Positions 11,741-32,160 are shown, counted from the stretch's first letter. The stretch: DNA of 64,000 nucleotides from Chitinispirillum alkaliphilum (GCA_001045525.1 LDWW01000015.1:1-64000); one strand, 5' to 3'. The notes: generated by a model not told the origin, from the letters alone. Numbers and translations: made by a program.

Positions 11741-12049
11741 ATGATTATCGTTTCGTTTACAGGTTGTTTGGATTGCCAAAAATTTGTACTATTCAGTTGG
11801 TTAAAAATAAAAACCGGCATAGGCACAAACGCCTTAAAAATGCCACAAAAAAATTTTTGAACCCAACCTGAACACCGACGACTTGCCTTCATGTGCCTTG
11901 GTGCAAATAAAACATCCCTTCAATAAATCTTACCTTACCATGAACGTAATAGATTATTGATCTCAATCAAAAAATTGTATTTTAATAGACTCTCGTTACC
12001 AATCGAACGTAATCGCTCAAAATTTTTTCCGCTCGAAATACTGACCAAA

Positions 12050-15000
12050 ATGAAAAAACGAAAATCACTGCCCGCAGCTCAGAACAGAATTACAATAGAA
12101 GGCGCATCCCAGAACACTCTCAAAAATATTGATCTGGAAATCCCTCTCAATAAACTGGTGGTAATAACAGGTGTAAGCGGCTCCGGAAAGTCTTCCCTTG
12201 CTTTTGATACCATTTATGCAGAAGGACAGAGAAGATATATTGAGACATTCTCATCCTATGCACGACAGTTTCTCGACAGGATGGATAAACCAAAGGTCGA
12301 ACGGATCACAGGTATTCCTCCCGCTATTGCAATCGACCAGACAAATCCTGTGAGGACATCCCGCTCAACAGTGGGTACAATGAGCGAAATAAATGACCAC
12401 CTTAAGCTGCTCTTTGCCCGCACCGCGGATCTTTATTGTTCCGGTTGTGGCAAACAGGTTAAAAGAGAAACAGCTTTGTCAATTTGTGATCATTTGTTGG
12501 AACAGGAAAACGGAATGACTGGTGTAGCTGTACTTATCACTTTCACTGTCACTGTTCCATCCAATTTTGAAGAATCTGAGGTGCTTGAAATGCTTCAGGC
12601 GCGTGGATATTCCAGAATTCATTCCAAATCAAAAAGCGGCATTGAAGTGATTCAGGACAGGGTTCATCTCGATGCTGAAAACCGGGATCGCATCATCGAA
12701 GACATTGAGCATGCTTTGAGTCACGGCAAAGGAAAAGTTGCGATTTACCGTATCGGTGACGAAAATGCTGAGCCCCTGAGGTTTTCCTCCGGCCTCCACT
12801 GTGCTGATTGTGACATTCACTTCAACGACCCTCTCCCAAACCATTTCTCATTCAACTCACCACTGGGCGCTTGTGAAAGGTGCAGAGGTTTTGGGCGCGT
12901 AATCGGAGTTGATTATTCACAGGTGATTCCTGATACATCAAAAACACTCGCAGGTGGGGCAATTAAGCCCTGGCAAACTGACAGCTACAGTGAATGCCAG
13001 GATGATCTTGTCCGATTCGCAAGAAAACGTTCTGTACCTTTGGATATACCCTGGAGAGAGCTTCCTGAAGAGCATAAGAGATGGGTGCTTGAAGGAGAAG
13101 GCAGTTGGGAGGATGGGTATTGGTATGGAGTAAGCAGATTTTTCGAATGGCTTGAAAGTAAAAGCTACAAGATGCACATCAGGGTTTTGCTATCACGTTA
13201 CAGAACCTATAAGCTGTGTCCGGAGTGTGATGGGGCGCGGCTGAAACCGCAGTCCCTGATGTGGCGTTTGGGAAAAGAGAAGGGTTATTCGATACATGAG
13301 ATAATGACTCTTTCTCTAAGGGAATGTTTTGAGTTTTTTCAGGGCATGGAGGTTGATTCCGGTGATGAACCTGTTGTGATAATTCTCAAAGAGATTAACA
13401 CAAGACTGGGGTACCTTAATGATGTGGGGCTTGGGTATCTGACGCTGGATCGTCAGTCACGTACTCTCAGTGGCGGGGAAGTCCAGCGAATTAATCTTAC
13501 TACAGCTCTGGGAACATCTTTGGTCAACACACTGTTTGTGCTCGATGAGCCCAGCATAGGGCTTCATGCTTCTGATGTTGGCAGACTGATAAAAATACTG
13601 GAAAAACTCCGGGATGCGGGTAACAGTCTGATTGTGGTTGAACATGATCCTGCAATTATTCTTTCTGCCGATCATATTATCGAGATGGGCCCAAAACCTG
13701 GTCTGGAGGGAGGGGAAGTAGTGTTTTCCGGGGCGTTGGATAAGTTTATTCAATGTAAAAGGTCGGATACCGCAGCATTTCTGTCTGGAAAAAAGAAGGT
13801 CTCTGGTGAGATGCACTCTTCACATGTGGCATCCAGGGAGCATATCAGGGTGCTTGGAGCTCATGAGCATAACCTGAAAAATGTAGACGTCTCGATACCG
13901 TTGGGGAAACTGGTATGTTTGACAGGTGTGAGCGGATCAGGAAAAAGCACCCTTATAGACACACTGCATAATGGATGGAGGAGCATAACAGGGAAAAGCG
14001 GTGATGAAAAAGTGGCCTGCAGAAAAATCACCGGCATAAAAAACATAGATGATATGGTATTTGTGGATCAGTCGCCGATTGGTAAAACAACCAGGTCAAA
14101 TCCCGCAAGCTATGTAGGGGCTTTGGATTATATCCGTAAATTGTTTGCTTCACAGCCGCTCTCTAAGGAAAGGAGATATACTGCAGGGACATTCAGTTTC
14201 AACTCCGGAAAGGGCAGATGTCCAACCTGTTCGGGAAATGGTTTTGAACAGGTGGAGATGCAGTTTCTCAGTGATGTCTATATTAAATGTGAAGATTGTG
14301 ATGGAAACCGCTACAGGCCTGAAATTCTCGAAGTCACTTTACCGGGAGAAAAGGGCACCAGACTCTCCATTTCGGATGTGTTACATATGACGGTCAAAGA
14401 GGCGTGTGGATTTTTCAAAAACAATGCCCAGATAAAAGCGCGACTCCAACCACTTCTTGACGTAGGCCTCTCTTATTTGTCCTTAGGTCAGCCTGTCCCA
14501 ACCTTGAGTGGAGGGGAGGCGCAGAGACTAAAACTTGCAGGACACCTTACCGAGAAAAAACGAACAAAAAACAATAAGGGAACGCTGTTTGTTTTTGATG
14601 AACCGACTACCGGGCTGCATTTTGAAGATATTTCCCGACTTATTGCAGCGCTCAGAAGTCTGATCGCTGCAGGTAATTCTGTTTTGGTTATTGAGCATAA
14701 CCTCGATGTGATCAGTCTGGCTGATTGGATAATTGATCTTGGGCCAGGAGGGGGAGAAAATGGTGGGGAAGTAGTGTGCGTTGGTACACCTGAAACTGTA
14801 ATGAAATCCCGCTCAAGTCTGACGGGTAAAGCACTGTTGAGCAGTAAAGAGATCAAGCCACAGCTACCACTTGCCAAAAATCTGTTATCGACCGAAAAAG
14901 ACATCGCGATTACCAATGCCTCTGAACATAATCTTAAAAATATTGATGTGAAAATTCCAAAAAATGCTTTCACTGTAATAACCGGAGTTAGCGGAAGCGG

Positions 15001-17485
15001 TAAAAGCACAGTGGCTTTTGATATTCTTTTTGCAGAAGGGCAGAGGCGCTATTTAGAATCTCTGAACGCCTATGCCCGACAGTTTGTTCAGCCAGCGGCA
15101 AGGGCAGAGTTTGATGCCGTTTCTGATATTCCGCCCACTGTTGCAATTGAACAGCGTACAAGCAGGGGTGGAAGAAAAAGTACGGTTGCCACTGTGACTG
15201 AAGTGTATCATTATATCAGACTGCTTTATGTAAAGCTTGGGGTTCAGCACTGTCCGCAATGTAAAATTCCTATTAAGCCCCGCTCTGAAGAATCAATACT
15301 ATCTTCTATTATAAAAGAAGAGAAAGATAAAAGGGTTGAAGTGTTTGCTCCTCTTGTAAGCAATAGGAAAGGGATTTATAAGGAACTGGCGTCATGGGCA
15401 AATTCAAATGGGTTTGGGTTTCTTAAAGTGGATGGGAAAAAGATTTCCACAACGAAATGGCCAAGTCTCGACCGTTACAAAGAACACAATATCGATCTGC
15501 CGCTTGGGGAATTGAATGTCGCCGAAAAATCTTATCCAGAATTAAGTTCTGTAGTGACTCGTGCTCTTGAACTGGGGAAGGGTACAATAAAAATCGAAAT
15601 CAAAGAGGGTCGGAAAAAGAGAACCGCAATCTACTCTGTTCACAGAAATTGTCCTGATTGCGGCAGAGGATTTCAGGAACTTGACCCCAGACTATTTTCA
15701 TTCAATTCCAAACACGGGTGGTGTACATCCTGTTTTGGAACCGGTATCGAAATCAAAGGGTTTGATGAGTTTCAGACTGGTGAGGAAATCTGGTGGAACG
15801 AATGGTGGGATGGAGAAAACAGGAACTGCAAAAAGTGCAACGGAAAACGACTTAGCCCCCAAGCTCTTTCTGTTTTGTTTCAAAACAGACCCATTTCAGA
15901 AATTGTCGAACTTGATATCGAACATGCTGCATATTTTTTCAGACAATTGAAGTTGAATTCCAGGGAAACTGCTATTTCTGCAGATATAATTTCTGAGCTT
16001 ATATCGCGACTTGACTTTCTCAAGAGTGTGGGTCTTGGGTATCTTACACTTGATCGTGCCGTGCCTACATTGAGTGGCGGAGAGGCTCAGCGCATAAGGC
16101 TTGCTTCCCAGCTTGGTTCAAACCTTCAGGGAGTGTGTTATATCCTTGACGAGCCCACAATCGGTCTACACCCAAGAGATAATATCATGCTCCTTGATAC
16201 ACTGTTCAGGTTAAAGGATAAGGGCAATACTGTAGTGGTGGTTGAACACGACGAAGAAACAATCCGGCGAGCTGAGCACCTGATTGACCTTGGACCCGGA
16301 GGAGGGGTTGCCGGCGGAAGCCTTCTATCTCAGGGATCACTCAAAACTCTTCTAAGAAACAAAAAATCTGAAACCGCAAAATATCTTAACAAACCGATAC
16401 TGCATCGTGAGGACAGGCTGAGGCCATGCCCTGCAAACTGCGATTCACTCACAATATCAAATGCAAACTTACACAATCTTAGGAATATTACAGTTTCGCT
16501 GCCTCTTGGAAGACTGGTGTGTGTAACAGGTGTAAGTGGAAGCGGTAAGAGCACACTCGTTCGCGATGTACTTTTTGACAATCTTAAACAGCTACTTGAC
16601 AAGAAAAAAAGAGGTGCATCGGGGAGATTGTCGGGGTGTAAAAGTATAACCGGATACGAATCAATCGCACGAGTTATCGAAGTAGACCAGAGTCCGATTG
16701 GGAAAACATCCAGGTCCTGTCCCGCAACATATGTGGGTTTGTGGGATGATATTAGAAAACTATATGCAGGTACACCGGAAGCAAATCTAAGGGGGTTTTC
16801 TCCAAGCCGGTTCTCTTTTAATGTGGAGGGCGGCAGGTGCAGTAATTGCAGAGGAATGGGAGTGAAAAAAGTTGAAATGAGTTTTCTGCCGGATGTGACT
16901 GTCAGCTGTGATGTGTGCAGGGGTAAACGTTTTACGAGTGATACCCTTGAGGTCAGGTATAAGGGAAAGTCAATCGGTGATGTTCTTGAGATGAGTATTG
17001 ATGAAGCCGCAGAGTTTTTCTCCTTTCACTCTTCTGTTTCAAAAACACTGAATCTTCTAAAAGATGTAGGGCTGGGGTATCTCTCTCTCGGTCAGCCATC
17101 CTCTGCATTAAGCGGCGGTGAGGCTCAGAGGATTAAACTTGTTTCTGAACTCTCCCGTTCAATGCCAGGCAGCCGTTTCAGAAAAAAAGGTTCCTCAAAT
17201 TCAACACTTTACATTTTGGACGAGCCAACCATAGGTCTTCACATGGCAGATATCGATAACCTCATTCACGTACTGCACAGACTTGTTGATGCGGGTAATA
17301 CGGTTGTAGTGATAGAGCATGACCTGGATATTATTGCTGAGGCTGATAGGGTCATTGATCTTGGCCCTGAAGGTGGTGATAAGGGGGGACAGTTGGTAGC
17401 GCAGGGTACTCCGTGGGAGTTACCGGTACGGTATAAAAAATCTTATACGGGGCAGTTTTTAAAAAGAGTGTTGAATTCCCGGTGA
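12050..17485 (+). CDS. uvrA: Tandem-fused excinuclease subunit UvrA (four ABC ATPase domains)
   Basis: Damage-recognition ATPase of nucleotide excision repair, about 1811 residues: two whole UvrA copies in one chain. Module 1 spans about 12050-14870 and module 2 about 14880-17485. Each module has two Walker A motifs (GVSGSGKS; starting near 12170, 13924, 14984 and 16529), two signatures (LSGGE[VA]QR) and two Walker B segments ending DEP[ST][IT]GLH. Zinc-finger cysteine pairs are visible in each, such as [16 protein letters not shown] and [16 protein letters not shown]. The modules are diverged from each other, so the fusion is old. Fused UvrAs of about 1800 residues are known from Chlamydia. 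The start is uncertain: I use ATG 12050, but a TTG at 11957 is in frame; no clear ribosome site for either. UvrB and UvrC are not in the window. Confidence 0.93.
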
Positions 17486-22047: not shown

Positions 22048-24822
22048 TTACCTGAAATGGTTCATCATCAATGCTTTATAGTTTCTAAGTGCGCTCTGGT
22101 AATCCGGGTTGAGATCAATTGCTCTCTGGAAATAATTCGCAGCTTCTCTGTATGATCCTTTTTGGGCATGAATAACCCCAAGATTGTTGAATGCCATATA
22201 GTTTGTTGGTTTAATCCTGACTACCCTTTCATACTGTTCAATAGCATTTTGAAGCTCTTTTTCTCTCTGGTAGAGCATAGCCAGATTGAAATGCACACTA
22301 TGGTTATCCGGTCTTATCTTTGAAGCTTCTTTGTAATACCGGATTGCCTCTTGCATGTCGCCTCTTTTTTTGTACTCTTCTGCCAGAAGGAAAATTGCTC
22401 TGAAATTAAGCGGGTTGATTTTGTGGGCCTGTCTAAGGATTATTTTTTCTCCATGTTGTTCGTAGTGGGTTAAGAGTGACTGGGTAATTATATCTGAAAC
22501 ATGAAGACGCCTCATGAAATTAACCGCGGTAATCATTGTATCCGTAATATCGCTCCATATGATATCAGGATCATCGAATAGTGGGATTATGCTGTCGAGG
22601 AAATGTTCATTGGTCTGGTTTCTTGCAGCAAAGTATTCAAGTCTGGGATTATTATCGGTAAAAACAGGACTGTTCTCTGTGAACTGTGCAAGAGTTGACG
22701 GGCCACACAGGAAACCTGCAGTAAAAATGTAGGGGTTATTTACATATTGTCTTGGCCCTCCAAAATAGCTGAATGAGAGGTCATCATACAATTCAGGATC
22801 TGAGAGGCGGGATGAAAAGCGGTCCAGGGAAAACGTTGGGGTTGAAGATACAGATCCGATCAGTAAAAATTCAGATTCGTTATACCACAGCACTGTATTG
22901 GGAAAAACAGAAATAAAGGTGCTGACTGCTGATTTGAAATGGTCGTAGTCAAATGAAGCAATTGGAAGAAACTGGGAGACTATTCCGCCCTCATTTAGCC
23001 TTTTTTTGCACTCACGGTAAAATTCTCTGGTGTAAAATGACGAAAGGTTGGGCCTGAATGTCTGGCCAATTTCAATGGATATTAAGTCAAACATCTTATC
23101 TGTATTGGACAAAAACAAGCGCCCGTCTTCACTCAGAAATCTGACTCTGGGATCCTCTGTCCAGTTTGAGGGGAAGTGTTGCTGTATAATCGGAAGTATT
23201 TCCCGTTCAATATCCACGCAAAAAAGAGAATCGATATCGTACTTTAGAAAACGACTTGCTGTTTGACCTACACCTGTTCCGATAACCGCAACATTTGAAG
23301 GTGAAGACTGGTGGAGCATCATTGGTATATGAGCTGCCATAAATTGTCGGTTTTTTCTCTCTTCCCCCTGCCACATCTTATCGATTTCAAGGATCTTGTT
23401 GTTGCCTTCCTGAATGACGGACAGAAACGAACCTATGCCTTCATATACGGCAACTAATTCTCCTCTGCTTTTAAGGTAATCATGAGGAACCTTTGCTCCA
23501 ATGAACATTGGATAGATTACCCATACCAGAACGGAAACTGCAACGGTGCAGGTTTTTTGAATATTGTTCAATTTCTGAGAGAAGGCAAATAGGGTGTATG
23601 AGCCGGCAATTAAAAGGATTCCGGTTGTAATTGCAAGAGTAATCTGTATGCCTGTGAGCGGGAGGAGAATAAACCCTGTTATAAATGCTCCAAGTACTCC
23701 CCCGGCAATGTTTACAGCAGATAGAAATCCGGTTGTGTAACTTGTGGTTGTGGCTGATTTTGCGGACATCTTAACCGCAAGAGGAAACAGCATACCGGAC
23801 AGTACTGCCGGTATCATGAAAAGAAGTACACACAAGACTACCATATTGAGAGCGCTTTGTTCCGCAACGATTCCCTGTATTATCTGATGGGGCAGCAAGG
23901 TAAAAACAGTGACAAAAAGTGCCGCAAAGATCGTTATTACCCCAAAGACAAAGCCATGATCCTTTATTCTCTTTGAGATCGCGGAGATCAGAAAGTATCC
24001 GGTTGCGAGTCCGAACAGAATCGACGAAAGGGTAAGTGTGTAGGTGTATACTGTATTGTGTACCAGAAGTGAAAGAAATCTTGTCCAGAGTACTTCGTGG
24101 GCCATTACAGAAAATCCAATAGCCATGAAAACAAAGTAGAGTGGAATATGTCTGAGGGAAAATTCCGGTTCTTTAGTCTTGTGAAGTTCTTCTGAGGGTT
24201 GTGAAAATGTCCCGGGAGTTGCCTTTTTCAGCAGATATATTCCAATAAAAATGTCAATCGCACCGCCTATGATCAGAGTCTGGTACATGCCCAGGTGCGG
24301 TATGAGAAGGAACCCCGCAGTGAGTGTACCGAAAAAGGCTCCGATTGTGTTTATGGAGCTGAGATTTCCCACACTTTTCAGTATCTTGTTTTCAGAATTT
24401 ACGAAATACCTTACAAGAAGCGGCAGAGTTCCACCCATCAGAAAAGCCGGTGGCATAAACAGAGCGGCAACAACCATTATCCTTACCACTGAAACTATGT
24501 AGAAATTGCTGCCCAGAAGATTGTATGAAAAAGAAAAAGGTATCCGAAGTAAAAAGAAGAGAAGGGGAGTCAGAATCACCCAGATCCCTGTAAGTATTTC
24601 TATTATACCGTACATCTTTATAGGATTGGAGTTGGTTTGTGACTTTTTCCCAAACCAGTAGGAACCTGCTGACATTCCGGCAAAAAACACACCCGTCACT
24701 GTTGCTATTGCCAATGAAGCAGACCCGAAAATGAGGGTTGCCTGTCTGATCCATATCAGCTCATATACCAAGGATAAAAAACCTGTTGCAAAAAAAATCG
24801 CTATAAACATAACCACCCGCAT
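22048..24822 (-). CDS. Multi-pass membrane / spermidine-synthase-fold / TPR fusion protein
   Basis: A 924-residue three-part protein. Residues about 1-430 hold some 12 or more TMs resembling the membrane domain often fused to spermidine-synthase-like proteins (FLSLVYELIWIRQATLIFGS at the start). Residues about 450-680 are a Rossmann methyltransferase-like spermidine-synthase fold, with VAVIGTGVGQTASRFL and a downstream RFLSEDGRLFL. The usual acidic catalytic aspartate segment reads ISIEIGQTFRPN, so true aminopropyl transfer is doubtful. Residues about 800-920 contain at least three TPRs (NPLNFRAIFLLAEEYKKRGD, then NLAMLYQREKE, NNLGVIHAQKGS). TPRs suggest binding to a partner on the same side as the catalytic fold. 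Start is ATG 24822 or the fifth codon; neither has a strong ribosome site. Confidence 0.8.
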   Translation of the reverse strand: MRVVMFIAIFFATGFLSLVYELIWIRQATLIFGSASLAIATVTGVFFAGMSAGSYWFGKKSQTNSNPIKMYGIIEILTGIWVILTPLLFFLLRIPFSFSYNLLGSNFYIVSVVRIMVVAALFMPPAFLMGGTLPLLVRYFVNSENKILKSVGNLSSINTIGAFFGTLTAGFLLIPHLGMYQTLIIGGAIDIFIGIYLLKKATPGTFSQPSEELHKTKEPEFSLRHIPLYFVFMAIGFSVMAHEVLWTRFLSLLVHNTVYTYTLTLSSILFGLATGYFLISAISKRIKDHGFVFGVITIFAALFVTVFTLLPHQIIQGIVAEQSALNMVVLCVLLFMIPAVLSGMLFPLAVKMSAKSATTTSYTTGFLSAVNIAGGVLGAFITGFILLPLTGIQITLAITTGILLIAGSYTLFAFSQKLNNIQKTCTVAVSVLVWVIYPMFIGAKVPHDYLKSRGELVAVYEGIGSFLSVIQEGNNKILEIDKMWQGEERKNRQFMAAHIPMMLHQSSPSNVAVIGTGVGQTASRFLKYDIDSLFCVDIEREILPIIQQHFPSNWTEDPRVRFLSEDGRLFLSNTDKMFDLISIEIGQTFRPNLSSFYTREFYRECKKRLNEGGIVSQFLPIASFDYDHFKSAVSTFISVFPNTVLWYNESEFLLIGSVSSTPTFSLDRFSSRLSDPELYDDLSFSYFGGPRQYVNNPYIFTAGFLCGPSTLAQFTENSPVFTDNNPRLEYFAARNQTNEHFLDSIIPLFDDPDIIWSDITDTMITAVNFMRRLHVSDIITQSLLTHYEQHGEKIILRQAHKINPLNFRAIFLLAEEYKKRGDMQEAIRYYKEASKIRPDNHSVHFNLAMLYQREKELQNAIEQYERVVRIKPTNYMAFNNLGVIHAQKGSYREAANYFQRAIDLNPDYQSALRNYKALMMNHFR

Positions 24823-26617: not shown

Positions 26618-26664
26618 ATCGAGTGTGCTCTGAATCTCTCCCAAAATATCAGTTTCTAATATCG

Positions 26665-26699
26665 CTTTGTTACTCCTTGATTCCTCAGGAGTAACAAAG
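26665..26699. repeat. 12-bp perfect inverted repeat after glyA
   Basis: CTTTGTTACTCC (26665-26676) and GGAGTAACAAAG (26688-26699) form a perfect stem with an 11-base loop. It sits 48 bp after the glyA stop and would be a stable 3' hairpin, but no T-run follows on either strand, so it is not a standard terminator. It may be a 3'-end-stabilising structure or an operator. Confidence 0.6.
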
Positions 26700-26854
26700 T
26701 GCTTGAACCGTCCGATACTTGATCATTTATGATTTCAATCTCATACTGTAAGTGTGTATTATTTAAATTACTACATATGGTATAGTGTGGACTGCTTCGC
26801 GTTTCCGTATTTCAATTCAATTATCGTAAAAACCTCACTACAGCAGGTAATTTA

Positions 26855-28030
26855 ATGGATGTTTCAATTTCTGGCGCACTGTCGGTACTGAATATAGGCA
26901 GGAAATCTGCTCTTCTGTGCCATATGTTTATAATCTGTTGTGTAGCTGCAGTGTTGTCCCAAGAGGTTTTAATCCCCTGTGTTCCCTCAGTTATTGAGGA
27001 TCACCAGGTTTTGCACTATTTGGGATTGGGTCAGGTTAGTGGGGTTGAGTACCGGGCCTGTCTGAGTGGTGATAAGAATCAAAGAAAACTGATCCTGTTT
27101 CGGGATGGAACACAAATTGGCGAACTGGACCCACAAAAAACAGAGAGACTACTGGTTGAGCATAAAAACTTTGGGCTGTCATTGTCACAAAACAGGTCTC
27201 CAAGGGCGCTGGGTGGCAGTGCGGGAAAAACTTTTTTCAGGGATACCATTTTCAATCCTCAGATAGATAACAGAGAAAAGATTGCTGCAATTATGGAAAG
27301 TGGCGCCTGGCCTGCCGGTTTTGAAATAATTAAAAGATTAGAGTTTGCTGGCAGTACCACAGCCCTCCTCCGTAACTCTGTTGCGTTTAATGGAATGTAT
27401 AACTATCATTATTTTTATATCGGTGCGGGGTTACAAAGAAACTGGTATAGTGGGGGACTGCCCGATATTTTGCTCTCAAATGAGAAGAATAATTACCTGA
27501 ACCATGCTTTTTCCTTTACATTGGGAGTCCCTTTTGTCCGATATGAACTGAAGCAGGCGGGGTGGATACTTCCTGAGTATTTTTGGCTGGAAGATGATAT
27601 CATTGCTGTGACTGACAAAAGAGTGGAGCCGAGGACTGTTGGACAAATCAGTCGTCAGTGGGATAAAAGTCATAAAAAAAACTTCTCCCATGCTCTCTAT
27701 TTCAAGGCAGGCCATTTTGGATTCAGTATGCTGTTTGATTTTGAGATGTATAGCAGGACAATATATCAGTTTCAAATGGATAATCTTCCGTCTGTTTTCG
27801 GTACCTGGGGAGCTTCACTGACATTTGCGGCTGATGCGTGGATACCAGGGGTTTGGCTTGATGTTCCAAAATTTGAAACCGTTTTTTTCCGTGGCAGAAA
27901 TTTCCAAGTACCTGTTGAGGTGGAGCCTTTGCAGCTACATTTTCATTACTGGAACCTCCGGAGGTATAATCTGGGTTGCAGTATGCGAATAAATTTTGAC
28001 GTTCGTAAAAATAGTCAGGAGAGGTTATGA
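26855..28030 (+). CDS. Predicted exported beta-rich (outer-membrane-like) protein, envelope cluster gene 1
   Basis: 391 residues, no family recognised. An N-terminal hydrophobic stretch (about 18-36, ALLCHMFIICCVAAVLS) acts as signal peptide; a second possible start is Met24. The C-terminal half has many alternating aromatic strands, such as YNYHYFYIGAGLQRNWY, AFSFTLGVPFVRYEL, HALYFKAGHFGFSMLFDFEM and SLTFAADAW, and its late strand LGCSMRINFDV resembles outer-membrane barrel proteins. The stop overlaps the ATG of the next gene by four bases, so it is co-translated with the ExbB/MotA-like protein. Topology is inference. Confidence 0.55.
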   Translation: MDVSISGALSVLNIGRKSALLCHMFIICCVAAVLSQEVLIPCVPSVIEDHQVLHYLGLGQVSGVEYRACLSGDKNQRKLILFRDGTQIGELDPQKTERLLVEHKNFGLSLSQNRSPRALGGSAGKTFFRDTIFNPQIDNREKIAAIMESGAWPAGFEIIKRLEFAGSTTALLRNSVAFNGMYNYHYFYIGAGLQRNWYSGGLPDILLSNEKNNYLNHAFSFTLGVPFVRYELKQAGWILPEYFWLEDDIIAVTDKRVEPRTVGQISRQWDKSHKKNFSHALYFKAGHFGFSMLFDFEMYSRTIYQFQMDNLPSVFGTWGASLTFAADAWIPGVWLDVPKFETVFFRGRNFQVPVEVEPLQLHFHYWNLRRYNLGCSMRINFDVRKNSQERL

Positions 28031-29118
28031 AATCTGATCAAAAAAGACAGGAAGTCTTAAACTTCTCAATTCTTGATCTTGCAGGAATGCATCTTAAAAA
28101 TTGTAAGACTCTGATTTATACAACTATGGGCTTGCCCTTACCCCTGATAGCGGCTGCCGTATTTGGGTTTTTCTATTTTCAACCCACCTGGTACAAGGAT
28201 GTTTTCCTTTGGTCTATTCTGATTCTCTTTGTTGCTGGGCAGTTGGGGGCGCTCATTCAGCTGATCAGTTTGAAAATGGGGGCTACAAAGACAGGTGTTG
28301 TGTTATCTGTTCTGAAAAAATTCGGTAACAAACCCGATCTTCAGGGATTACAGGAACAGCTACTGTATAAGGCTCCCGCCTGCCATGCGCGTGATGGCCT
28401 GTTGCGCTGGATTCAACTGGGAGTTCAGGGGGAGTCGGAGGGGCTTGAGAGATTAATGGAACACGCTGCAGACCGACGCGATCAGGTCTCTTCAAAAATC
28501 CTCTCATTTCACGGCTTAATTACTCGAACCACTCTCAAACTGGGATTTCTTGGAACGCTTATCGGATTGTTGATGACTTTTGAACCAATGAAGCAGGCAA
28601 TGCTTTCACTGCAGGGCAGCGAAGGGGAGTTTCAGTTCATCAACGATATCGTTAAAGCTATTGATGGTAATGCTTATGCCATACTTACAACTATGTTCGC
28701 CACCGGACTTTCAATTTTCATTGAACTTCTGACTATTCAGGTAATGGAGAAAATTCTCACTAAATTTGAAATGGTAAACAGCAATCTCGATGATTGGTGT
28801 ATCATACATCTGCAGCCATGGATTAAGAACAGTCACTCATCAGAAAAAAACAGATTGGATAAGCTGGCTGAGTTACAAAAGGGATTTGCCGAGAAAATCA
28901 CCTCACTTCACAAGTCAATGGATGAGCAACTCCGTGTCCTTGCTTCACGCGTGGAGGAAACCGGGCGTCAGATTAATAGTCTTATCCCCCTTGAAAAGGA
29001 GATGTCAAGGAAGATACAACTCCTTACAGATTATGAAACAGAGTATCGTCAATTTATAAGTTCAAAGCTTCAGAGTGTTGCTGCACCGTTTGAGGGTATG
29101 GGGAAAATTGATGAGTAG
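28027..29118 (+). CDS. ExbB/TolQ/MotA-type proton-channel protein with coiled-coil tail
   Basis: A 363-residue inner-membrane protein. TMs lie at about 30-50, 59-82, 168-187 and 212-236. The last two with their connecting loop follow the MotA/TolQ/ExbB domain pattern: TTLKLGFLGTLIGLLMTF then ILTTMFATGLSIFIELLTIQ. A cytosolic segment of about 85 residues separates TM2 and TM3, as in this superfamily. After TM4 there is an unusual ~125-residue C-terminal tail with heptad-like hydrophobics (about 275-345), probably a coiled coil. Such proteins form pentameric channels that turn proton or sodium flow into movement of a partner protein. It overlaps its neighbours by 4 and 8 bp. Which subfamily it joins I cannot say. 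Confidence 0.78.
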   Translation: MKSDQKRQEVLNFSILDLAGMHLKNCKTLIYTTMGLPLPLIAAAVFGFFYFQPTWYKDVFLWSILILFVAGQLGALIQLISLKMGATKTGVVLSVLKKFGNKPDLQGLQEQLLYKAPACHARDGLLRWIQLGVQGESEGLERLMEHAADRRDQVSSKILSFHGLITRTTLKLGFLGTLIGLLMTFEPMKQAMLSLQGSEGEFQFINDIVKAIDGNAYAILTTMFATGLSIFIELLTIQVMEKILTKFEMVNSNLDDWCIIHLQPWIKNSHSSEKNRLDKLAELQKGFAEKITSLHKSMDEQLRVLASRVEETGRQINSLIPLEKEMSRKIQLLTDYETEYRQFISSKLQSVAAPFEGMGKIDE

Positions 29119-29644
29119 GAGAAAAAGGAACATAAAGTGCGATTCCGGAAATGCAATTTCCATAGAGGATGCATTGTCGATAATGGTGGTGATATTTGTC
29201 TTGTTTTTCCTTTTCATCGTGCCCCTTGTGAATATTGACAGGGCCAAACTTGAAGAGGCTCAGCTGGATGAGTACTGGGAAAAACTGACATCGTGGATAG
29301 AAACTGAAGAGCATCACTCTGCTGAATCAGCCCCTTACAAACAGGCATTTGGCCTTTACGGTCAGAAGGTGATTGTAACGGAAATTGACGGCGCGAGGTA
29401 TATAAAGGCCCTCTCCCCGGATGGGGATCTGACAGTTATAAATCACACCGGACAAAAATATATCTCTTTTATTGTCAGGGAACATAGTTCTGTTGTGACC
29501 TACAGGTATGGCAATATCCACTGGAGTACATCGGAACAGGAATGGTTTACCCTTAACAACCGCATAGATTATGGCAGTGAAGAATTTACAACTGCTATGC
29601 AGGAAGAGTTCAGGTTATGGACCAAAGCAAACAGAGGATTCTGA
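29111..29644 (+). CDS. One-TM ExbD/TolR/MotB-like partner protein
   Basis: 177 residues from ATG 29111, which overlaps the previous stop by 8 bp. A basic N-terminus (RRKRNIK) is followed by IEDALSIMVVIFVLFFLFIV, one TM with Glu19-Asp20 at its cytosolic edge. ExbD, TolR and MotB each have one N-terminal TM with a functional aspartate in about this place. The ~130-residue periplasmic part is not obviously an ExbD or OmpA-like fold. Role inferred mainly from position directly after the channel-type gene. An upstream in-frame TTG at 29075 is less likely. The next gene overlaps its end by 28 bp. Confidence 0.6.
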   Translation: MSRRKRNIKCDSGNAISIEDALSIMVVIFVLFFLFIVPLVNIDRAKLEEAQLDEYWEKLTSWIETEEHHSAESAPYKQAFGLYGQKVIVTEIDGARYIKALSPDGDLTVINHTGQKYISFIVREHSSVVTYRYGNIHWSTSEQEWFTLNNRIDYGSEEFTTAMQEEFRLWTKANRGF

Positions 29645-32160
29645 GCCTCAGTCATAAACCGAAATTTCTTATATGGAAAATTGTATTCCCCTGGTTTTGT
29701 ATAATATTGCTGACGGTTACTGCTGAGGGAGCGGACAACCGGGGACCACTTACCCATATGGGTATAAAAAAATTGAATGTGGAACCACTCGCATCACAGT
29801 TCGCCGAGCGATTGGCCGCACAGGGCAAACCCCTCTTTTATATCAGGAACATAAATCAGGGTGTGTCTCAGGGTGACATTATTCGCTTCAGGGACAAAGC
29901 CGTTTTAATCGACGGTGATGTATGGCAAACGATGCGCAGCATGGGTATTCTCAGGCATCTCAGTGATATTCCTTTACTGACTTTAAATGCCAGAGCCAGA
30001 AGTAATGTCTGGGATTCACGTTCAAAGCAGGTCTCCAATCCCGGGGAAATTAAAGGGTATACACTGGGGCGGGAACTGCTGAAAATATTTGAAGACTATT
30101 TCGGGAGCACCCCTTCGGGGACGGAGCTGGTAATTCGGTTTAGTGGTGCAAATATGACAATGGTAGCTCCGAGGCAATTGATGAATGAGCTGAATTTCAC
30201 CAACGTGGCTCCGATTAGAGGCGCAGCTGGTGCCCCTGCATTTATCACAACCCAACCACCGGAAAGAATCTTTGCCGGAGAGCCTTTTGAGTGGAGAGTT
30301 TGGGCAATAGATCCTGTTGAACCGGCTTCAAACATAAACTATACTACTGCTTCACAGTTGCCAGCCGGACTTCACTGGAACTCTTCCCGACACACGATTT
30401 CAGGTGTTCCGGATGAAACCGGAGCGTTTCCCTTAACTGTGTTGGCAAGAAATACCCGCGGACAATCAGTTGCACTGAATTGCACTTTGGTTATAGTAGA
30501 AAATACTCCTCCCCACATATATGTCAACACAGAAGAGCCTGCGGTATCTGGAAGCACATGGCACAACACTCCCTTTGTTACCGATTCAGAGCACTTGCTT
30601 AATGAAATAGAGGTAAGGCTCTTTGAACAACCCCAGGGAATGGTAATCAGCCAGGAAACAAAAGAGATCATTTGGGATGTTCCGGAAAGCTTCGTGGATA
30701 CTACTATAAGTTTTTATCTCGCAGCAAGAGATCCCCTGGGGGCGACATCCAGAGAAAAGGTATATCTCGATGTGATTTCTTATGAAGTGGCAGATGCAAA
30801 GGTTACTATTGATTTGAGATTGCCACTTGACACCCTGATTCAGGGCCATTTATACAGATGGCCGGAAAGCATCCTTTCAGTAACAGAATGGAACAGACGT
30901 GAAGTAAAATTGGTTGATGTGCAGGGGGATGACACTACCCGGTTCCATACAGGTGATATTCAGGATGAGGGTCTTTTAATGATTAGGCCTATGAGTCATG
31001 GGTCTCATACTCTGAATTTTACATTTGCACTCGATACCATTTTGATTCACGTTCAAAAGAATTGTGAGGTGATTCCAAATCGCCCGCCGGTATTTAAGAG
31101 CCGGCTTACAGCAGGCACATATAAAAAAAATCAGCATGCGGTATATACACCAGTTGTTTTCGACAAGGATGGGGATGCCCTGGTGTTGAGTGTTACAGAC
31201 ACAAGTGGAAACAGATGGCCGCTTGAAACTGGTGAATTCAGGCTACCCACAGATCAGTCCGGAGTCCATGCGTTTCTTCTGACTGCACAGGATCCTTTCG
31301 GTAACAAAGCCCGTCAGCATATCAGCTATTATGTAGAACCCGATCGTAAACATTATAGAAAGTGGTACATTCAGCAGCTTTACAGAAGTAGTTTGGACGT
31401 GGGTTACCAGTCTGGAGGGTTTCGAATAGGGCTGTATTCTACAGATATTTTCAAAACACTCACCACAGGTTTTCTGGGGATAAATACCTATGAAACTCCG
31501 TTGATTTATATTGGAGCCAATCCAATGGGTGAGAGGCAGGCAGCACTGAATAATTATCTTTTTCTTGACTGTGGGATAAGTTTTCGTATGTATAACGAAA
31601 AACTCTTCGGTGGTGGAATCATGGGGCGCATACAGGCAAATTATCGAAAAGATGGAACTTCACCCTGGCGTTTTATGGGAAAATTCAATACACGAATCAA
31701 GCAGAGTATATTTGTCACTGATACTTCCGGTCTGCACGACAAGTTAAAAGGGTATGTCGAGGACTGGCCAAATTTCTCAGAAAATGAAATTTATGAGTAT
31801 ATCGAGAAACTCGCCAGCATGTTCAATGCTTACGGACAACCTGACAATTTCGGATTGTATCTCTCCTTACAGACGCTTTACCATTTACCCTACGGATTCT
31901 GGGCCGGACCTTCAGTGTGGATCAGGGATGATATTAAACAGCCCGAGATAACAAAAGAAACTGATTTTCCCTATAATAACAGTGGCGCGGACTGGGGGAA
32001 TTTTCTGGTTCAGTATACTGGTTTCTGCATTCTGCATGAGCTGGACTACCGAAGAATCAACCTCTCCCAGCAATTGCATTTGGGATGGCGGGGTGATAGC
32101 CCCACTCCTGAATTGAAGTGGAATGCAACTTTTAGATTCTTAAACCGTAATTATTACTGA
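29617..32160 (+). CDS. Large envelope protein: Ig/cadherin-like periplasmic domains plus C-terminal beta-barrel
   Basis: 847 residues. A signal/TM segment lies at about 17-40. Residues about 45-195 form an unrecognised domain. Residues about 205-300 are a putative Ig / dystroglycan-cadherin-like domain (ITTQPPERIFAGEPFEWRV, then LPAGLHWNSSRHTISGVPDE, the classic form of that fold), followed by two or three further related repeats; the one near 490-580 includes FDKDGDALVLSV. From about residue 590 the chain turns to aromatic alternating strands (SLDVGYQSGGFRIGLYSTD onwards) and ends FRFLNRNYY, an outer-membrane barrel-like C-terminus. It would span periplasm and outer membrane. Last gene of the overlapping cluster. 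Confidence 0.65.
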   Translation: MDQSKQRILSLSHKPKFLIWKIVFPWFCIILLTVTAEGADNRGPLTHMGIKKLNVEPLASQFAERLAAQGKPLFYIRNINQGVSQGDIIRFRDKAVLIDGDVWQTMRSMGILRHLSDIPLLTLNARARSNVWDSRSKQVSNPGEIKGYTLGRELLKIFEDYFGSTPSGTELVIRFSGANMTMVAPRQLMNELNFTNVAPIRGAAGAPAFITTQPPERIFAGEPFEWRVWAIDPVEPASNINYTTASQLPAGLHWNSSRHTISGVPDETGAFPLTVLARNTRGQSVALNCTLVIVENTPPHIYVNTEEPAVSGSTWHNTPFVTDSEHLLNEIEVRLFEQPQGMVISQETKEIIWDVPESFVDTTISFYLAARDPLGATSREKVYLDVISYEVADAKVTIDLRLPLDTLIQGHLYRWPESILSVTEWNRREVKLVDVQGDDTTRFHTGDIQDEGLLMIRPMSHGSHTLNFTFALDTILIHVQKNCEVIPNRPPVFKSRLTAGTYKKNQHAVYTPVVFDKDGDALVLSVTDTSGNRWPLETGEFRLPTDQSGVHAFLLTAQDPFGNKARQHISYYVEPDRKHYRKWYIQQLYRSSLDVGYQSGGFRIGLYSTDIFKTLTTGFLGINTYETPLIYIGANPMGERQAALNNYLFLDCGISFRMYNEKLFGGGIMGRIQANYRKDGTSPWRFMGKFNTRIKQSIFVTDTSGLHDKLKGYVEDWPNFSENEIYEYIEKLASMFNAYGQPDNFGLYLSLQTLYHLPYGFWAGPSVWIRDDIKQPEITKETDFPYNNSGADWGNFLVQYTGFCILHELDYRRINLSQQLHLGWRGDSPTPELKWNATFRFLNRNYY

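Follow-up and report, generated by a model that had tools for sequence, protein, structure and literature searches.

A conserved four-gene unit of Fibrobacterota that combines a MotA/TolQ/ExbB-type protein with two candidate outer-membrane proteins

Do four overlapping genes of Chitinispirillum alkaliphilum encode a single machine, and if so, how could it carry energy from the inner to the outer membrane (OM)? The question is raised by positions 26855-32160 of a 64,000-nucleotide stretch (GCA_001045525.1, LDWW01000015.1:1-64000; hereafter the window), where four adjacent plus-strand genes, here termed g1 to g4, overlap by 4, 8 and 28 bp. A sequence-only reading of the window had proposed an ion-driven trans-envelope machine composed of an exported beta-rich protein, a four-helix MotA/TolQ/ExbB-type protein, an ExbD-like protein and a large protein with immunoglobulin (Ig)-like domains, and its open reading frames and overlaps proved exact. 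Its interpretation as a whole is partly supported by the present analysis, in which a probability of about 0.5 is assigned to one envelope-spanning, ion-driven machine that would use an arm of g4 in place of a TonB, TolA or Pal adaptor and act on g4 and g1 in the OM. The genes and their parts are as follows.

26855-28030, plus strand: g1, 391 residues; signal helix, small alpha/beta domain (residues ~40-150) and predicted OM beta-barrel of 12-13 strands
27308-28003, plus strand: barrel part of g1 (residues 152-383), predicted from structure model and fold match
28027-29118, plus strand: g2, 363 residues; MotA/TolQ/ExbB-type protein with four transmembrane (TM) segments and a C-terminal coiled-coil-like tail
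29111-29644, plus strand: g3, 177 residues; one TM helix (residues 22-40) and a predicted periplasmic domain of ~135 residues
29617-32160, plus strand: g4, 847 residues; signal peptide, conserved N-terminal domain, four Ig-like domains and predicted C-terminal barrel
29761-30216, plus strand: N-terminal domain of g4 (residues 49-200), its most conserved part (mean pairwise identity 0.45)
30223-31347, plus strand: four Ig/cadherin-like domains of g4 (residues 203-577; the third at 395-490)
31357-32142, plus strand: C-terminal region of g4 (residues 581-842), 12 predicted strands with long loops on one side

Strict co-occurrence and a fixed gene order are strong evidence that the four genes form one functional unit. 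The order g1-g2-g3-g4 is kept in 21/21 loci from several families, the window locus included, and the only three loci without g4 are cut off by a contig end. In 168 Fibrobacterota genomes, profile searches retrieved g1 from 16, g2 from 17 plus one weak match, g3 from 17 and full-length g4 from 18 genomes, one of them at a contig edge, while the many weak g4 matches in other genomes comprised the Ig-type repeats only. All four profiles retrieve the same 16-18 genomes, i.e., about one tenth of the sampled Fibrobacterota. An initial survey had detected g2 relatives in 8/61 genomes, one of them weak, and a profile scan of one genome per species (84,980 species) yielded 15 loci, 13 of which belong by name to the Fibrobacterota (Fibrobacter, Fibrobacteria, Fibrobacteres, Chitinispirillum) and one more to a genome of the same order. 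No relative outside the Fibrobacterota was found in this species-wide scan, which requires exact g2 peptides and may miss divergent relatives, as neither peptide is present in 3/21 known loci. The joint presence of the four genes in 21 loci across several families makes the observation more than chance, and the outcomes named by the sequence-only reading as fatal to it did not occur: synteny is conserved, g2 falls within its family, and g1 and g4 are predicted to be exported proteins with a barrel.

The unit is self-contained, since its flanks differ between families (pfkB-like, FloA/NfeD, radical S-adenosylmethionine, histidine kinase). No fifth constant gene was detected among the loci, the pfkB-like gene being present in eight loci of one family and the other neighbours being common to close relatives only. 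In the gene trees the loci cluster according to family and include one older duplicate whose g4 is shorter; the pairwise distances among the unit genes are correlated (r 0.92-0.97). Besides a full copy of the unit, some genomes have a divergent second one in which g4 is shorter (L068, L071, L073).

Profile comparisons place g2 as a distant member of the MotA/TolQ/ExbB superfamily, as the sequence-only reading had recognized. Its Pfam match to PF01618 (MotA_ExbB; E value 1.3e-4, 22.2 bits) falls just below the curated cut-off of 22.9, the genome search placed it just above (24.2 bits), and 8/16 g2 members match this family. Alignment of the g2 profile with the ExbB/TolQ proteins of the same genome (4.4-Mb assembly, 160 contigs) by hhalign gave a significant E value of 3.4e-6, compared to 0.43 for the reversed-profile control. 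Hydropathy indicates four TM segments at about residues 33-51, 59-77, 164-186 and 219-237, the number known from MotA, whereas TolQ has three (PMC12215075). Thr177, Thr222, Thr226 and Glu233 are invariant across the 21 loci, and Thr177 aligns with the GT motif of every ExbB, TolQ and MotA protein of the genome. By position, Thr177 matches the essential Thr145 of TolQ and Thr148 of ExbB, and Thr222 or Thr226, one of which is taken from the alignment as the second pore threonine, matches the essential Thr178 of TolQ and Thr181 of ExbB (PMC12905483); g2 hence retains the pore-lining threonines of the superfamily. A comparison of the g2 profile with solved structures returned coiled-coil noise only and was discarded.

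The four TM segments and the coiled-coil tail of g2 also recall ZorA, and the pair g2/g3 resembles ZorA-ZorB of Zorya, a MotA-like protein with a cytoplasmic tail and its MotB-like partner. A Zorya-like or other defence system with a MotA/MotB-type sensor, with which the patchy distribution and the weak matches (ZorA, E values 0.067 and 0.5; ZorB, 0.027) would agree, is nevertheless very improbable: these matches are below significance, no cytoplasmic effector gene is a constant neighbour in the 21 loci, its constant partners are exported proteins, and searches of plasmid and viral contig collections with g2 returned no relative.

The candidate axle, g3, starts with a positively charged N-terminus, followed by a single TM helix and a predicted periplasmic part of ~135 residues; its ATG start is backed by homologues, with an alternative in-frame GTG at 29075. 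Position 19, at the cytoplasmic edge of the TM helix, is acidic in 21/21 loci (Glu in 20, Asp in 1), whereas position 20 is variable (D17/E2/N1/S1). The single TM helix with an acidic edge was therefore correctly noticed from the sequence, but the conserved residue is Glu19 and not Asp20, which was the wrong first choice as a mutation target. The register of Glu19 against Asp23/25 is ambiguous in the alignment. The designation "ExbD-like" rests on topology and gene order, while sequence kinship was not significant: hhalign gave E values of 0.004 for MotB (reversed control 0.063) and 0.04 for TolR (reversed control 0.01), in a test that has little power for g3 because ExbD versus MotB scored no better than 0.0026. 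Pfam searches of the g3 members found no ExbD, TolR or MotB match, no OmpA-like domain in any of the 16 members and nothing else of use. The comparison of the g3 profile with solved structures gave no useful result either. In one metagenome-assembled genome g3 is split into two reading pieces (L025 10880-11200 and beyond, also L039), and the split matches at G039:C8 11876-12154 and 12160-12369 may represent a sequencing error or a real interruption.

On the side of the OM, g1 is predicted to be a barrel of 12-13 strands. Its only hydrophobic segment lies at the N-terminus, in agreement with the claim of an exported beta-rich protein, and the AlphaFold2 model (16 sequences; predicted local distance difference test [pLDDT] 81, predicted template modelling score [pTM] 0.65) starts with a signal helix and a small domain, after which come 13 strands. 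Superposition of residues 152-383 on OM barrels with VIA-align gave the oligosaccharide channel KdgM (Z 16.2, 2.5 Å, 158 residues), followed by the autotransporter barrels AIDA-I, NalP and EspP (Z ~15) and by FapF (Z ~15). This fold likeness shows no function, given that oligosaccharide channels, autotransporters and an amyloid secretion pore are all among the matches. Pfam searches of all g1 members and a comparison of the g1 profile with solved structures yielded nothing useful. No kinship between g1 and g4 was found by profile comparison (E value 0.18); a similar short strand-FRD-strand-helix stretch at residues ~78-102 of g1 (27086-27160) and ~88-108 of g4 (29878-29940) is likewise without significant profile kinship.

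The Ig/cadherin-like domains of g4 are recognized by Pfam (He_PIG, E value 3e-11), with cadherins and SraP among their best fold matches. The AlphaFold model (13 sequences; pLDDT 74) consists of an alpha/beta domain at the N-terminus, then four Ig-like domains and, at the C-terminal end, 12 strands. When the predicted strands are counted from the C-terminus, one side has the long loops (699-745, 771-797, 608-629) and the opposite side mostly short turns, which we read as the pattern of OM barrels with both ends in the periplasm. Strand alternation is strong in this region, but the Ig strands alternate too, a terminal aromatic residue is present in 8/18 members, and the fold search was taken up by Ig domain matches, leaving the barrel without an independent fold match. 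Of the earlier description of g4, the length of 847 residues and the Ig/cadherin-like domains stand, and the C-terminal barrel is likely, according to the predicted strands of one model. Both termini of a 12-strand barrel are periplasmic, and the preceding Ig domains would accordingly lie in the periplasm unless they are translocated as a passenger. Mean pairwise identity declines from the N-terminal domain (0.45) and the first Ig domain (0.41) to 0.28-0.29 in the second Ig domain and the barrel, and the third Ig domain is missing in four loci with a short g4. A most conserved N-terminal domain, a barrel among the least conserved parts and one dispensable Ig domain would fit a docking head, an output end and a spacer, respectively. 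Four Ig-sized domains could bridge the periplasm, as the GldM shaft of four domains measures 18 nm (PMC9389320).

The main rival to this arrangement places the Ig domains of g4 outside the cell, where they would serve as an adhesin exposed via the barrel and moved by g2/g3 for surface motility or adhesion, much as in GldLM/SprB or AglRQS/Glt. Autotransporters, too, can have a 12-strand barrel at the C-terminus preceded by repeats, a layout into which g4 would fit, and its Ig/cadherin-like domains resemble adhesins such as SraP and the cadherins. GldLM and AglRQS, which belong to the same motor class, drive gliding (PMC9389320). We regard this alternative as unlikely. Conservation in g4 is higher in the N-terminal domain than in the Ig domains or the barrel, which is unusual for a surface-exposed tip, and g4 has the 12 predicted strands of a type Va autotransporter without any Pfam match to an autotransporter domain. 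The Myxococcus system AglR-AglQ-AglS with Glt, a motor coupled to OM beta proteins as proposed here, comprises one AglR, two ExbD-type proteins and Glt proteins (PMC3169522), whereas the unit has a single g3 in all 21 loci, no tetratricopeptide repeat (TPR) or GltD-G-type component and four genes only. Like the unit as proposed here, GldL-GldM has a functional glutamate and a motor with a multidomain periplasmic shaft of similar expected length, but GldM carries the shaft itself, while the shaft-like domains of the unit are located on the OM partner g4; moreover, GldL has two TM helices and GldM a large periplasmic part (PMC8986121), in contrast to the four TM segments of g2 and the 177 residues of g3. 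FliF is encoded by 16/18 carriers of the unit, so that no replacement of flagella is evident and this role was rejected.

We therefore return to the envelope-spanning machine with a periplasmic g4 arm. In this model the inner membrane would contain an ion-driven 5:2 motor, powered by the proton motive force, in which g2 would probably supply the ring as a pentamer and g3 the axle as a dimer; protonation would likely take place at Glu19 of g3, placed next to the invariant g2 threonines. On the periplasmic side, the g3 domain would act on the conserved N-terminal domain of g4, whose C-terminal barrel would be anchored in the OM and whose Ig-like arm would span the periplasm back toward the motor, taking the place of a separate TonB, TolA or Pal adaptor. 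Motion would be passed to an OM assembly of g4 and the g1 barrel, and the most likely output would be the opening or driving of a channel or the movement of an OM or surface component. The farther-reaching proposal of a lineage-specific class of energized OM systems without a separate TonB/TolA/Pal-type adaptor, in which a barrel protein would contact a four-TM 5:2 motor directly through the tip of its Ig arm, with glutamate as the coupling residue, is tentative and stands at somewhat less than even odds. Several points weigh against the model: the distance correlation taken alone is also expected from shared inheritance, g3 has no significant sequence kinship to ExbD, TolR or MotB, the g4 barrel rests on a single model with a pTM of 0.37, and by analogy with autotransporters the Ig part of g4 could lie outside the cell.

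The gene combination matches no described machine, and its proposed motor would belong to the 5:2-type class. The Ton system (ExbB-ExbD-TonB) is the counterpart of an inner-membrane ion-driven pair acting on an OM barrel, with g2 from the same superfamily and the pore threonine kept, but the unit has neither a TonB gene nor a recognized plugged TonB-dependent receptor, its annotated neighbours in the window include neither of the two, g2 has four TM segments rather than three, and the periplasmic link is apparently part of the OM protein g4. The MotA-MotB stator combines a ring protein with four TM segments and a partner with one, as do g2 and g3; it differs in the OmpA-type domain that g3 lacks, there are no flagellar genes near the unit, and the genome has its own MotAB. 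The Tol system (TolQ-TolR-TolA, TolB-Pal) employs the same motor class to join the inner to the outer membrane (PMC12905483), and such a direct link would suit the layout of a tether that draws the OM inward at division or at the pole, with g4 as an integral Pal-like anchor. This function is improbable, however, because TolQ-TolR are encoded elsewhere in the genome together with a TonB/TolA-like gene (L001), ~90% of the phylum lacks the unit, which is hence not housekeeping, and a peptidoglycan-binding domain was not found by Pfam in g1, g3 or g4. Neither the unit nor the annotated genes next to it include TolA, TolB or Pal, and the annotated genes of the window contain no TonB, TolA, Pal or flagellar gene, as had been stated from the sequence.

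With TolQ-TolR, MotAB (L003) and several ExbB-ExbD sets in the same genome, the unit is an addition and not a substitute. The stock of motor pairs is large, with several separate ExbB sets (L002, L004, L005, L006), in three of which two ExbD-type genes come after ExbB. A motor driven by the proton motive force is also needed for type IX secretion (PMC8986121), whose C-terminal tail domains are found almost throughout the phylum (167/168 Fibrobacterota genomes). The unit, present in 17-18 of these genomes, cannot be the general motor of this pathway and was rejected in that role, which leaves a function in type IX secretion with the slightest probability of all the readings considered. The search for GldM in Fibrobacterota genomes was silent where the tail domains abound; its control was silent too, and the absence is not used as evidence.

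With respect to expression, the four genes likely form their own transcription unit, as a strong hairpin is located upstream of g1 and a gap of >100 bp follows the 3' end of g4.

26663-26701, plus strand: hairpin between the serine hydroxymethyltransferase gene and g1, stem of ~15 bp without a T run, -22.3 kcal/mol; probably marks a transcription boundary

The count of the consensus promoter/terminator scan was at or below chance level, and the hairpin is not on its terminator list because it lacks a T run. Elsewhere in the window, an 1842-residue protein with two UvrA interaction domains represents a tandem UvrA-like fusion (11957-17485, plus strand), and a 924-residue multi-TM protein has a spermine-synthase-like domain and C-terminal TPRs (22048-24822, minus strand).

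A literature search found no paper that describes the four-gene set. A recent survey has grouped the non-flagellar relatives of MotAB as "generic ion transporters" of diverse structure, many of which contain domains without a known function, and its main text does not mention Fibrobacterota (PMC12505986). Few known machines carry inner-membrane energy to the OM of Gram-negative bacteria, namely, the Ton, Tol, flagellar, Gld and Agl systems. If the proposed mechanism is true, the unit, with its motor and both OM partners in one operon, would be among the smallest of such machines and would test force transfer without a TonB-type adaptor. It provides a defined target in the Fibrobacterota, a polymer-degrading phylum in which few studies have addressed the envelope machinery.

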